Part shown: one piece after another, positions 13,843 through 19,073 of the stretch
How positions within the stretch are numbered: the stretch's first letter is position 1
Layout of the letters: each line of letters begins with the position of its first letter
DNA from: Bacteroidota bacterium
GTDB taxonomy: Bacteria; Bacteroidota; Bacteroidia; Sphingobacteriales; Sphingobacteriaceae
DNA length: 64,000 bases
NCBI GenBank assembly: GCA_018828585.1
Contig: JAHJVW010000128.1
Location: 1-64,000 of the forward strand
Reading direction: 5' to 3'
Position numbers and translations under genes: made by a program
The notes under the pieces: generated by a model
The model's input: only the letters and a program-made list of their open reading frames with translations
Told to the model about the DNA's origin: nothing
The model's database searches: none

Positions 13843-14589
13843 ATGTTAAAAAAAGAGCGCCAAACCTACATCATGAAGCAGATAAATCTGCACAATAAAG
13901 TACTTTCATCAGATTTGAGTCAACAATTAGATGTATCTGAGGATACAATAAGAAGAGACTTAAATGAATTAGACGAAGCTGGTAAATTATTAAAAGTGCA
14001 TGGCGGAGCGCTCTCAAAATCTTTCCATTTCCCTTTTCATCAAAATGAAGTTTATGCCCAAGAGTCCAAAAGGCAAGTGGCTTTAAAAGCCATTAACTTA
14101 ATTAAAGAGGGGATGGTTGTTTTAACTGGTGGTGGAACTACCATGATTGAAATGGCAAAATTGATGCCTGAAGAACTCGATGCAACTTTCTTTACAATTA
14201 GCCCGCTGGTTGCTTTAGAATTGGCAGAACATCCTCGTCTAACAGTAATTCTAATAGGAGGTCAATTATCCAAAAATGCTCAAATTAATATCGGCGCTAG
14301 GGTTATCAACGATTTATCTGAAATAAAAGTTGATATCTGTTTTTTAGGAGCTAATGGAATTGATTTTAAAGAGGGAATTACTGATTCTGACTGGGAGGTA
14401 GTACAGGTAAAAAAAGCAATGATTAAATCAACAGCAAAAGTGGTGATTTTGAGTATCGCTGAAAAGTTAAACTCTGTTCAAAAAATGAGGGTTTGTGGAT
14501 TAAATCAAGTCACTCATTTTATAACTGATTTAGATCCTGGAAGCGAAGATTTAGCTCCTTTTAAAGATGGAAACATTCAAATTTTTTAA
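13843..14589 (+). CDS. DeoR/GlpR family transcriptional regulator
   Basis: The 248-aa protein has an N-terminal winged HTH (about residues 5-58, with SSDLSQQLDVSEDTIRRDL as the helix-turn-helix). Its C-terminal effector domain is of the phosphosugar-sensing DeoRC type, with the TGGGTTMIEMA and LIGGQLSKNAQ segments. Such proteins usually repress sugar genes until a phosphorylated sugar binds. It sits between the susC operon and anmK/nagB, and each of these control regions has a matching operator-like sequence, including its own. A phosphorylated amino sugar such as MurNAc-6-P or GlcN-6-P is the likely effector, by inference. Confidence 0.9.
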   Translation: MLKKERQTYIMKQINLHNKVLSSDLSQQLDVSEDTIRRDLNELDEAGKLLKVHGGALSKSFHFPFHQNEVYAQESKRQVALKAINLIKEGMVVLTGGGTTMIEMAKLMPEELDATFFTISPLVALELAEHPRLTVILIGGQLSKNAQINIGARVINDLSEIKVDICFLGANGIDFKEGITDSDWEVVQVKKAMIKSTAKVVILSIAEKLNSVQKMRVCGLNQVTHFITDLDPGSEDLAPFKDGNIQIF

Positions 14590-15773
14590 TTTGGGAAACT
14601 AATCTTACCCATACTTTTAGTTTGATCTCCAAAAGCTTCGTAATCTCCAGCAACCGTTTCATTTGCCAAAATTGCGAAAAGTACTGTTTCTTTGGCATCT
14701 GGATGAATCATTAAATCACTCGTACTTTTAAAAATTGCAAATGGAACTAACCCTTCTAAATTTTTCATCAACAATGGATTTTGAAAACCACCACCACTAG
14801 TATAAACCACGGGATGAGTAGTGTGATCAAAGATTTGATTGATAGCTACGGAAATCCCTTCAGCTGTAAAGCGATTAAGGGTTGCCATTATATCTTCTGC
14901 TTTCAGGTTGTTTTTATTAGATTTTTCAATCGCATTTTCCAAATACTTTAAATTAAACAGTTCTGGTCCTGTAGTTTTTGGAAGTTGTTGATTGAAAAAC
15001 GGATGATTTAATAATTCATTCAGTAATTCAGTATCGACTACACCTTCTAATGCCATTGAAGCATTCAAATCATAATATTTATTTCCCGTTACTTTTAGAA
15101 TAAATTGATCCATTAAGGTATTTCCAGGTCCAACATCTGTGCTTATTGCATTTGCAAATACAGCATCTTTTTTTAAAATGGTAAAATTCGCGATTCCACC
15201 AATATTTAATAAAATGCGGTTTTCTGCGTTATTTCTAAATAAAAGATAATCACCATATAGGGCTAGGGGAGCTCCTTCCTTTCCTTCAGCTATGTTTTTT
15301 TGTCTAAAATCACTTATGGTAATAATTCCTGTTTGCACAGCAATATAATCGCCGTCTCCTATTTGTAAGGTAGCGTTTAGAGGGTTGGCGTCATTTCTAA
15401 GTCGAGCCGGAGAATGATAGATGGTTTGCCCATGACTAGCTATTAAATCAATAGCCTCAGATTTCAAATTTTGTTGGATTAAAAATTGATTTACGGAGTT
15501 AGAAAAATGTTGAGCAATTTCAATATTAAGTAGGCTAATCAATTCCAAATCTGTTTCTTTTAAAAAACAAATTTCTTTTAATTTATGCTTAAATGCTACT
15601 GAATAAGGAAAGCTTTCAAAAGCTAACAAGTCAACTTTTACCGCTAATCCATTACCGCTAATTTTACACAAACCGACATCAACTCCGTCTAATGATGTAC
15701 CAGACATTAAACCAATTATTAATCGGTCCTTTTTTTTAGCTATTTCACACAGTTTGCTAACTTGTTTATTCAT
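14586..15773 (-). CDS. anmK: Anhydro-N-acetylmuramic acid kinase
   Basis: AnmK phosphorylates and opens 1,6-anhydro-MurNAc from peptidoglycan turnover to give MurNAc-6-phosphate. The 395-aa protein begins with the ATPase-fold phosphate loop IIGLMSGTSLDGVDVGL. It also has the ASHGQTIYHSP segment, ILLNIGGIANFT, DVGPGNTLMD and the YTSGGG nucleotide-binding loop. The length is slightly above the usual 370. It ends convergently with the DeoR-type gene, overlapping it by 4 bp, and is divergent from nagB across a 139-bp region with operator C. This places it in an amino-sugar recycling locus. Confidence 0.93.
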   Translation of the reverse strand: MNKQVSKLCEIAKKKDRLIIGLMSGTSLDGVDVGLCKISGNGLAVKVDLLAFESFPYSVAFKHKLKEICFLKETDLELISLLNIEIAQHFSNSVNQFLIQQNLKSEAIDLIASHGQTIYHSPARLRNDANPLNATLQIGDGDYIAVQTGIITISDFRQKNIAEGKEGAPLALYGDYLLFRNNAENRILLNIGGIANFTILKKDAVFANAISTDVGPGNTLMDQFILKVTGNKYYDLNASMALEGVVDTELLNELLNHPFFNQQLPKTTGPELFNLKYLENAIEKSNKNNLKAEDIMATLNRFTAEGISVAINQIFDHTTHPVVYTSGGGFQNPLLMKNLEGLVPFAIFKSTSDLMIHPDAKETVLFAILANETVAGDYEAFGDQTKSMGKISFPN

Positions 15774-15912: not shown

Positions 15913-17835
15913 ATGGCTCGTTTAAACCTTCTAGAATCAACCCGTTTTGAAAAATTACCTGTTACTGTTTATGAAAACGAACAGGATGCCTGCAAAAAAG
16001 TAGCCGCAAAAATTGCAGCATTGATTCATTCTAAGAATGAAAAAATGGAAAAGACCTTTTTGGGTTTGGCAACAGGCGCTACCCCAATTGGGGTCTATAC
16101 TGAGCTGATAAGACTACACAAACAGGAGGGATTAAGCTTCAAAAATGTGGTCACATTTAATTTGGATGAATATTATCCAATGCAGTCGAATGCTGAGCAA
16201 AGCTATGTGCGTTTCATGAACGAGCAATTGTTCAACCACATAGATATACTTCCAAATAATATCAATATTCCGGATGGAACCCTAACAACTGAAGAAGTTC
16301 CTCAATTTTGTCTTAATTACGAAAAGAAAATTACTGCTTATGGCGGTCTAGATTTACAGGTTTTAGGTATCGGAAGAACTGGTCACATTGGTTTTAACGA
16401 ACCCGGTTCGGCACCAAATTCTGGAACAAGAATGGTTACTTTGGATGATTTAACCAGAAAAGATGCTGCAAAAGATTTTGGAGGAAAAGCTAATGTTCCA
16501 ACAAAAGCAATCACCATGGGTGTTGGAACTATTTTTAAAGCAAAGGAAATAATTCTAATGGCTTGGGGAAGCAAAAAAGCACCCATCATTAAAAAAGCAG
16601 TTGAAGGGGAATTATCTGGCGAAGTACCAGCCACCTATTTGCAACTTTCGGATAATGTTGAATTTGTTCTTGATCGTGATGCCGCTTCCCTACTCACTCG
16701 TTTTGATACTCCATGGTTAGTGAAGGATTGTGTTTGGGATGATAAATTAATTAAAAAAGCTGTAATCTGGCTGGCCAATACCGTACAGAAACCTATATTA
16801 AAATTGACTGAAGAAGACTACAACAGCCATGGGATGGCTCAGCTGGCCACAGAGAAGGGCCCCGTTTACAATATAAATATCCATATTTTTAATTTATTGC
16901 AACACACCATCACCGGGTGGCCGGGTGGTAAACCAAATGCTGATGATAGTCAGCGGCCAGAAAGAGCCGAACCAGCGATCAAGCGTTCTATCGTATTCTC
17001 TCCGCATCCAGACGATGATGTAATTTCTATGGGCGGTACTTTCATTCGTTTGGTAGATCAGGGTCATGATGTTCATGTGGCTTATCAAACTTCGGGAAAT
17101 AATGCGGTGTGGGATGACGATGCTTTAAGATATCTAGAGTTTAATATAGATATGGCTAAAACGTTGGGTAAACCCGATGCTGAAATGGAACAACTTCATG
17201 AGAAACTTAAAGTATTTACCCAATCGAAAAATCCTAATCAAAATGATCCAGAAGAACTGAAACAAATAAAAGGATTGATAAGAAAAGGCGAAGCAACAGC
17301 AGGTGCAAGGTATTGTGGTTTAAATGATGATCATATACACTTTATGAATATGCCTTTTTATGAGAAAAGAAAATCGAGCAGAAAGAATGAAGTTTCTGAG
17401 GACGATGTCAAAGTAACTATTGACTTTTTGCAGAGCATAAAACCACAGCAAATATTTGCCGCAGGAGATTTTGCCGACCCCCATGGAACACATAAAATAT
17501 GTTTCGAGGCTATAAAAAGAGCCATGGAAAAACTAAGGAAGACAGAAAAATGGGCCAAAGATTGTTGGGTTTGGTTGTACAGGGGGGCGTGGCATGAGTG
17601 GGAAATCCATGAAATTGAAATGGCAGTTCCGTTGTCTCCCAAAGAATTAGAGCGAAAAAGAAATGCCATTTTTAAACACCAATCTCAAAAAGATCGTCCG
17701 GTTTTTCCGGGTGATGATTCTCGTGAGTTTTGGGTAAGAGCCGAAGAACGAAACAGAGATACCGCCAAGCAATATGATGATTTGGGCCTAGCAAACTATG
17801 AGGCTATGGAAGCTTTTGTAAAATGGAAATTTTAA
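15913..17835 (+). CDS. nagB: Glucosamine-6-phosphate deaminase-like / PIG-L deacetylase-like fusion
   Basis: This 640-aa protein joins two domains. Residues about 15-265 are NagB-like, converting GlcN-6-P to Fru-6-P and ammonia, with GLATGATPIGVY and NLDEYY (Asp85). GHIGFNEPGS carries His158 and Glu163. Residues about 355-630 are a PIG-L/LmbE-type metal-dependent deacetylase fold with SPHPDDD (His365, Asp367/368) and DPHGTH. In E. coli NagB the residue two before the catalytic His is Asp; here it is Thr (GRTGH), so activity may differ. The same architecture occurs in Bacteroides, annotated as NagB-like. The fusion could deacetylate GlcNAc derivatives and then deaminate them, by inference. Confidence 0.9.
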   Translation: MARLNLLESTRFEKLPVTVYENEQDACKKVAAKIAALIHSKNEKMEKTFLGLATGATPIGVYTELIRLHKQEGLSFKNVVTFNLDEYYPMQSNAEQSYVRFMNEQLFNHIDILPNNINIPDGTLTTEEVPQFCLNYEKKITAYGGLDLQVLGIGRTGHIGFNEPGSAPNSGTRMVTLDDLTRKDAAKDFGGKANVPTKAITMGVGTIFKAKEIILMAWGSKKAPIIKKAVEGELSGEVPATYLQLSDNVEFVLDRDAASLLTRFDTPWLVKDCVWDDKLIKKAVIWLANTVQKPILKLTEEDYNSHGMAQLATEKGPVYNINIHIFNLLQHTITGWPGGKPNADDSQRPERAEPAIKRSIVFSPHPDDDVISMGGTFIRLVDQGHDVHVAYQTSGNNAVWDDDALRYLEFNIDMAKTLGKPDAEMEQLHEKLKVFTQSKNPNQNDPEELKQIKGLIRKGEATAGARYCGLNDDHIHFMNMPFYEKRKSSRKNEVSEDDVKVTIDFLQSIKPQQIFAAGDFADPHGTHKICFEAIKRAMEKLRKTEKWAKDCWVWLYRGAWHEWEIHEIEMAVPLSPKELERKRNAIFKHQSQKDRPVFPGDDSREFWVRAEERNRDTAKQYDDLGLANYEAMEAFVKWKF

Positions 17836-17861: not shown

Positions 17862-17892
17862 AAAGTCGTGGAAATCTCTACGACTTTTTTTT
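17862..17892 (+). terminator. Intrinsic terminator after nagB fusion
   Basis: AAAGTCGTGGA and TCTACGACTTT form an 11-bp stem with one G-U pair and a 4-nt loop, followed by T8. It separates nagB from the DUF5009 gene, which would need its own promoter or read-through. Confidence 0.9.
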
Positions 17893-17942: not shown

Positions 17943-19073
17943 ATGACCCCTGCTCCTGAACTAAAAAAGAGACTGCTTTCATTAGATGTTTTTAGAGGAA
18001 TTACCGTTGCCGCCATGATTTTGGTAAATAATCCAGGAGATTGGAGATATATTTATGCTCCTTTAGAACACTCAGAATGGAATGGTTGCACACCAACAGA
18101 CCTAATATTTCCTTTTTTCTTATTTATAGTTGGTGTATCCATAGTTTATGCGCTTTCAGGGAAGAAAGTAGACGCTTCTAATCATTCAAAAGTCTTGCTT
18201 TCCGTTTTTAAAAGAGCGGCGATTTTATTTGGATTAGGATTATTGCTATCCTTATTTCCTTTCTTTGATTTTTCTGTTGTCCGCATTCCCGGCGTTTTAA
18301 CTAGAATTGCAATAGTATATCTCATCACTGCAATTCTATTTATCAAGTTTAATGAAAAAGTGCTTTTTAGATTGTTTATAGGGTTACTTTTGATTTATTG
18401 GTTGGTAATGACCCTAATTCCTGTACCAGGTATAGGTTTACCTAATTTAGAGCCAGAAACAAACCTTGGTGCTTGGTTAGACCGTACTATTTTTACAGAA
18501 GCCCACTTATGGAAACCTAGTAAAACCTGGGACCCTGAAGGTTTATTAAGTACACTTCCTGCAGTGGCAACGGGTTTATTCGGAATATTAATCGGCCTAA
18601 CCTTAAAGTCAAAACAGCGAACTGATGAAAACAAAGTTGCATGGATGTTTACCTATGGTTTAATTGCGGCTTTAGCTGGTTTGGTTTTAGATTTAGTTTT
18701 TCCTATCAATAAATCTTTATGGACAAGCTCCTTTGTATTGTATACCGGCGGATTGGCTAGTATGGCTTTGGGCTTATGCTATTGGTTAATAGATGTGAAA
18801 GGCTTCACTAAATTTACTAAGCCTTTTGTTATATATGGTGTAAATGCGATTACTGTTTATTTTGCCTCAGGAATTATTGCAAGGTCAATGACCCTTATTT
18901 ATGTACCATTAAATGGTAAAGACGTAACATTAAAAGGCTGGTTTTATGAACAATTTTTCACTCCTTATTTTTCGCCTTATAACGCATCTTTAGCTGGAGC
19001 AATCACCTTCGTATTAATCTGGTTATTGATTTTATGGATAATGTATAGAAAGAACATCATTATCAAAGTTTAA
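17943..19073 (+). CDS. DUF5009 / HGSNAT-like membrane acyltransferase family (NagX-like)
   Basis: This 376-aa inner-membrane protein has about ten hydrophobic segments. The N-terminal signature RLLSLDVFRGITVAAMILVN and then WNGCTPTDLIFPFFLFIVG is that of the DUF5009 family. The family is related to human heparan-alpha-glucosaminide N-acetyltransferase and to NagX of bacterial chitin/GlcNAc loci. A role in acetylating or transporting amino sugars across the inner membrane fits its place after nagB. No DeoR-type operator is seen right upstream. The family is secure; the biochemical role is not. Confidence 0.87.
   Translation: MTPAPELKKRLLSLDVFRGITVAAMILVNNPGDWRYIYAPLEHSEWNGCTPTDLIFPFFLFIVGVSIVYALSGKKVDASNHSKVLLSVFKRAAILFGLGLLLSLFPFFDFSVVRIPGVLTRIAIVYLITAILFIKFNEKVLFRLFIGLLLIYWLVMTLIPVPGIGLPNLEPETNLGAWLDRTIFTEAHLWKPSKTWDPEGLLSTLPAVATGLFGILIGLTLKSKQRTDENKVAWMFTYGLIAALAGLVLDLVFPINKSLWTSSFVLYTGGLASMALGLCYWLIDVKGFTKFTKPFVIYGVNAITVYFASGIIARSMTLIYVPLNGKDVTLKGWFYEQFFTPYFSPYNASLAGAITFVLIWLLILWIMYRKNIIIKV

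Follow-up and report, generated by a model that had tools for sequence, protein, structure and literature searches.

A NagB-PIG-L fusion protein encoded in the window, a stretch of 64,000 nucleotides from a Bacteroidota genome of the family Sphingobacteriaceae, probably converts GlcNAc-6-P to GlcN-6-P and then to Fru-6-P on a single polypeptide, with the PIG-L domain acting as a non-homologous stand-in for NagA. It is also reasonably likely that NagA was displaced by the PIG-L half, as a GlcNAc-6-P deacetylase, in most of the fusion-bearing Bacteroidota. An earlier note on this gene had raised the idea of a bifunctional deacetylase-deaminase, which is well supported by comparative genomics, namely by the absence of NagA, the operon context and the existence of half-inactive copies, along with the domain content, the intact catalytic sets and the distribution of the fusion. 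From these computed lines of evidence, we infer both catalytic activities, GlcNAc-6-P as the substrate of the PIG-L domain and any transfer of the intermediate from one active site to the other.

The protein is predicted to be a cytoplasmic bifunctional amino-sugar enzyme. GlcNAc-6-P would be supplied either from MurNAc-6-P, via AnmK and MurQ, or by import and phosphorylation of GlcNAc; the C-terminal, metal-dependent, LmbE-like PIG-L domain would remove the acetyl group, and the N-terminal NagB domain would then convert GlcN-6-P to fructose-6-phosphate and ammonia. The PIG-L domain would thus replace the unrelated amidohydrolase NagA in most fusion-bearing Bacteroidota, the organism of the window being one that keeps NagA as well. 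If this is correct, the missing GlcNAc-6-P deacetylase step is filled in approximately three quarters of the fusion-bearing Bacteroidota genomes, and peptidoglycan recycling (AnmK, MurQ) and chitin/GlcNAc utilization are tied to one two-step enzyme that combines the roles of NagA and NagB for cell-wall and chitin sugars. A sugar-6-phosphate substrate would then enter the LmbE superfamily, and a specific, testable function would be assigned to the C-terminal portion of the proteins of a large family that is now named only 'deaminase-like', which is the useful result of this analysis.

Domain architecture and family membership

The fusion gene (positions 15,913-17,835, forward strand) starts with ATG and encodes 640 amino acids. 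The protein is unexceptional within an already catalogued domain-fusion family: the NCBIfam model NF002557/PRK02122 ('glucosamine-6-phosphate deaminase-like protein') covers residues 6-640 at 1040 bits (cut-off 384). Because this match extends end to end, and the architecture is conserved in 153 fusions, a chance or truncated fusion was ruled out. There is no structural difference from the catalogued family, the C-terminal half of which has no assigned activity; the architecture is known in the phylum, as had been suggested. Literature searches for the fusion, and for a PIG-L domain combined with a GlcN-6-P deaminase in Bacteroidetes, yielded no biochemical characterization, in agreement with the previous remark that its biochemistry is not well defined. 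Deletion of Flavobacterium johnsoniae nagB, an annotated GlcN-6-P deaminase gene, had no effect on chitin utilization, with three more nagB-like genes present in the genome, and expression of the product in Escherichia coli failed (PMC5127042).

The NagB-type deaminase domain spans approximately residues 20-262 (positions 15,970-16,698, forward strand), as delineated by Pfam (Glucosamine_iso, PF01182, residues 22-244, E = 1.5e-17), TIGR00502 (nagB; 249.5 bits, cut-off 236.9) and structural modeling. In the AlphaFold2 model of the full-length protein (mean pLDDT 84), the best Foldseek match of this half by target-normalized TM-score (0.95) is Bacillus subtilis NagB (2bkv). The predicted PIG-L/LmbE-type deacetylase domain occupies approximately residues 360-540 (positions 16,990-17,532, forward strand) and matches PF02585 at residues 360-537 (E = 6e-17, 62.8 bits). 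When this half was modeled separately (pLDDT 81), nearly all Foldseek matches at E <= 0.001 were LmbE-type proteins (best E = 7e-9, target TM-scores 0.5-0.7), with diacetylchitobiose deacetylases (Dac) ranking first among the LmbE-type enzymes, in agreement with the profile search. Neither PF01979 nor TIGR00221 matched the fusion in the Pfam and NCBIfam searches, which indicates that it contains no amidohydrolase (NagA) domain. Thus, the fusion may act like NagA, yet it is not a member of the NagA family.

The NagB active site

The catalytic Asp, His and Glu and the phosphate-binding Arg and Lys are all present in the window protein. Residues D85, H158 and E163 correspond to D72, H143 and E148 of the hexameric E. 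coli NagB, and R182 and K222 to its phosphate-binding R172 and K208. These residues are conserved among the 153 aligned fusions (D85 and H158 in 151 each, E163 and K222 in all 153, R182 in 139), as is E86 (in 151-153). The alignment verifies the previously noted substitution in the motif GIGRTGHIGFNEP (GRTGH): Thr156 (codon act, positions 16,378-16,380, forward strand), located two positions before the catalytic His158 (positions 16,384-16,386, forward strand), is the equivalent of E. coli Asp141. Asp is found in this position in the NagB of Vibrio cholerae (NDGH) and Borrelia (PDGH), and Asn in that of B. subtilis (RNGH). In the fusions, the position is occupied by Thr (110), Asn (21), Ser (20) or Val (2) but never by Asp. 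Stand-alone NagB proteins of Bacteroidota have Asp in 22 of 31 cases and Asn in 8, the latter being the residue of a second type of stand-alone NagB; the sole Thr comes from a fusion (L043) that was read in a shorter frame.

GlcNAc-6-P is an allosteric activator of the E. coli enzyme, and the residues listed as binding it include Asp141 (PMC4281351). The residues of this allosteric site are not kept in the fusion, where Asp141 is replaced by Thr156 and Lys160 by Val175; the C-terminal helix that ends the chain of the hexameric NagB and contributes to the site is replaced by the linker and the PIG-L domain. The fusion resembles the monomeric B. subtilis NagB (about 42% identity and a non-Asp residue ahead of the catalytic GH, in addition to the high TM-score), although the latter lacks a PIG-L domain and has Asn where the fusion has Thr. 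The nagB and gamA genes of B. subtilis encode GlcN-6-P deaminase isozymes (PMC3648570). Given that a non-Asp residue is also found in this active enzyme, Thr156 points to a NagB of the non-allosteric type rather than to a new substrate. Judging by the alignment, the Thr156 change is unremarkable and usual for the fusion family.

The PIG-L domain

The first motif of the PIG-L domain, SPHPDDDVISMGGT (HPDDD; H365-P-D367-D368, positions 17,005-17,016, forward strand), contains the predicted metal-ligand His, general-base Asp and metal-ligand Asp. The second motif, DPHGTH (D522-P-H524-G-T-H527, positions 17,476-17,493, forward strand), is the second half of the predicted metal site, with either H527 or H524 as the third ligand. 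Both the fusion of the deaminase to a PIG-L-like domain and these motifs, which had been pointed out before, were confirmed by the domain and family searches. Many PIG-L/LmbE relatives contain HPDH where the fusion has HGTH. The metal site of LmbE proteins consists of HxD1D2 and a distant His, with D1 as the general base (PMC4101496), and that of Pyrococcus Dac of His40, Asp42, Asp43 and His151 (PMC9779004); the same pattern is present in the fusion. H365, D368, D522, H524 and H527 are found in all 153 fusions and the predicted general base D367 in 151, and this conservation argues for catalysis. The spacing between the second and third ligands is 158 residues with H527 or 155 with H524, compared to 97-148 in characterized members, a range that is not strictly defining; in the model, the domain includes an extra helical stretch, and the gap exceeds that of the characterized members by approximately 10 residues.

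The nearest solved relatives in both profile and fold searches are the Dac enzymes (CE14 of the LmbE/PIG-L superfamily), which share the PHPDD-VI-MGGT motif and the fold with the fusion and deacetylate GlcNAc and its oligomers, (GlcNAc)2 best and GlcNAc less efficiently (PMC9779004). The relationship is distant, with only 18-20% identity and a target TM-score of about 0.6, and Dac differ from the fusion by the absence of the HGTH signature, of the approximately 158-residue gap and of an attached NagB domain. NagA, the GlcNAc-6-P deacetylase of the amidohydrolase superfamily (TIGR00221), is proposed to share with the PIG-L half the reaction and the position in the pathway, but belongs to an unrelated fold and family and is missing from most genomes that encode the fusion.

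Distribution of the fusion, NagA and MurQ

Among 297 genomes drawn evenly across Bacteroidota, the fusion was detected in 122. NagA was found in 43 genomes above the TIGR00221 cut-off and in 9 more as weaker full-domain matches; a protein query retrieved the identical 52 genomes. NagA is absent from 91 of the 122 fusion genomes, compared to 8 of the 25 genomes that encode only a stand-alone NagB (Fisher p = 9e-5), and accordingly present in 31 of the former (including that of the window) and 17 of the latter. At the level of GTDB families, tallied by hand and providing only a coarse correction for relatedness, any NagA is present in 6 of the 27 fusion families vs. 6 of the 6 stand-alone families (p = 8e-4). 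MurQ is encoded in 121 of the 122 fusion genomes. Its presence alone is weak evidence because it is also found in 67 of the 150 genomes without either kind of NagB.

A strict rule that MurQ must pair with either NagA or the fusion was rejected given that 63 of these 150 NagB-less genomes (of the 297 sampled) encode MurQ but not NagA. In these 63 genomes, GlcNAc-6-P is perhaps reused directly through GlcNAc-1-P.

Operon context in relatives

Several NagA-less genomes carry the fusion in clusters for peptidoglycan recycling. In three of them (L140-L142), a NagZ-type GH3 glycosidase, an AmpG-family permease, a GHL10 hydrolase and the fusion are encoded co-directionally, with a DeoR regulator and MurQ in divergent orientation; AnmK is located at the end of this cluster in L141 and L142. 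In two more (L138 and L139), a BadF-type sugar kinase, MurQ, a small protein and the fusion are arranged in one direction. These assignments are based on profile searches for single representatives (L138, L140 and L141), the other loci being assigned by matching start sequences. Altogether, MurQ adjoins the fusion in 5 cases in 80 genomes, compared to approximately 0.2 expected. The GlcNAc operons of other lineages combine the fusion with NagP and a GH20 hexosaminidase (NagP-fusion-GH20 or fusion-NagP-NagX-GH20), and NagA is absent from all 12 genomes with such NagP/GH20 fusion operons. DeoR genes flank the fusion in relatives too. A different arrangement is found in a member of Flavobacteriia (G068): here, NagA adjoins the fusion, and the operon, which is of the sialate type, also encodes a sialate esterase and an acylglucosamine 2-epimerase.

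The BadF-type kinase genes near MurQ and the fusion (L138: 9,099-9,941; L139: 8,950-9,792; divergent) encode proteins with weak similarity to NagK (33.5 bits) and could be MurNAc or GlcNAc kinases.

Natural half-inactive copies

The alignment of the 153 fusions includes four copies in which one of the two active sites is disrupted. Two of these (L097: 1,477-3,465, and L145; genomes G230 and G238) combine a NagB half that carries D85Y, T156V and H158N with a complete PIG-L site; both genomes encode a canonical stand-alone NagB (L116 and L114) and MurQ, and lack NagA. In the other two (L202 and L203; genomes G108 and G203), the general base of the PIG-L domain is lost (D367A) and the NagB site is complete. 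Each of these genomes encodes a second, intact fusion (L093 and L085), and each D367A copy adjoins a stand-alone PIG-L gene (PF02585); in G203, a ROK kinase is located there as well. The co-occurrence of half-inactive copies with substitute genes suggests that each half is dispensable when another gene can supply its activity. Such a pattern would be anticipated for two catalytic halves that act in succession.

In the regions of the D367A copies (L207: 5,602-8,581 and L208: 6,402-10,194, the latter with the ROK kinase), the adjacent stand-alone PIG-L genes encode proteins with a signal-like N-terminus.

Alternative functions

It is possible, albeit rather unlikely, that the NagB half is a normal GlcN-6-P deaminase whereas the PIG-L half deacetylates another molecule that feeds the same pathway, such as free GlcNAc, diacetylchitobiose, or a muramyl or nucleotide sugar. 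The substrate preference of the Dac enzymes (PMC9779004) is compatible with such a role, and so are the retention of NagA alongside an intact PIG-L domain in some fusion genomes, including that of the window, and the adjacency of NagA and the fusion in G068. These observations are countered by the location of the fusion next to MurQ, the product of which is GlcNAc-6-P, in NagA-less genomes, by the utilization of GlcN-6-P by the partner domain in the same chain, and by the absence of NagA from most of the fusion carriers, all of which favor GlcNAc-6-P as the substrate.

A non-catalytic PIG-L domain, functioning as a GlcNAc-6-P sensor or a structural module that regulates the deaminase and succeeds the allosteric site of E. 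coli NagB, appears highly improbable. Such a succession would fit the activation of the E. coli enzyme by GlcNAc-6-P with the involvement of Asp141 (PMC4281351) and the replacement of Asp141 and Lys160 in the fusion, but the metal ligands and the general base are conserved beyond the needs of binding, the copies with a ruined deaminase site (L097 and L145) keep the PIG-L domain, and those that lost the PIG-L base (L202 and L203) have a separate PIG-L gene alongside. There is similarly little to be expected from the idea, suggested with regard to the substrate by the earlier note, that the replacement of Asp by Thr redirects the NagB domain to another sugar phosphate or another reaction. The position indeed lies close to the catalytic His (two residues ahead of it), and hexameric NagB proteins typically carry Asp there. 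Nevertheless, Thr, Asn or Ser are general in the fusion family, Asn is present both in B. subtilis NagB, from a species with two GlcN-6-P deaminase isozymes, the products of nagB and gamA (PMC3648570), and in the second type of stand-alone NagB of Bacteroidota, the remaining catalytic and phosphate-binding residues are all kept, and the fusion is the sole NagB in the genome of the window. The changed-substrate interpretation was therefore dismissed.

The locus in the window and the host genome

The locus in the window (contig JAHJVW010000128.1 of assembly GCA_018828585.1) is a reduced form that consists of a SusC-like gene, a DeoR-family regulator (positions 13,843-14,589, forward strand; identified by Pfam and by comparison with relatives), a divergent gene for the anhydro-MurNAc kinase AnmK (positions 14,586-15,773, reverse strand; Pfam/NCBIfam), the fusion, and a gene for a NagX-like transmembrane glucosamine N-acetyltransferase (HGSNAT_cat; positions 17,943-19,073, forward strand; Pfam/NCBIfam and relatives). 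The host genome additionally encodes a NagA with the canonical motifs EGPF, GHS, THLFNAM and TDA (L134: 5,833-6,924, contig C13). The nagA gene is located inside a translation gene cluster and not with amino-sugar genes, between rpsI/rpsB/tsf-like genes upstream and pyrH/frr-like genes downstream (names derived from the sequence). Since this NagA appears intact, the PIG-L domain of the fusion would either duplicate its action on GlcNAc-6-P or act on another sugar in this organism; redundancy with NagA is possible for the window's own genome. The PIG-L site stays intact in the window fusion despite the presence of NagA in the same genome.

A terminator-like hairpin of 11 pairs with a T tail is located directly 3' of the fusion gene (positions 17,862-17,887, forward strand); the search identified 5 terminator-like sites over both strands, compared to 1.9 expected. 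The NagX-like gene directly follows the predicted deacetylase gene here and in several relatives, so that opposite acetylation steps would be encoded side by side, perhaps operating on different sides of the membrane.
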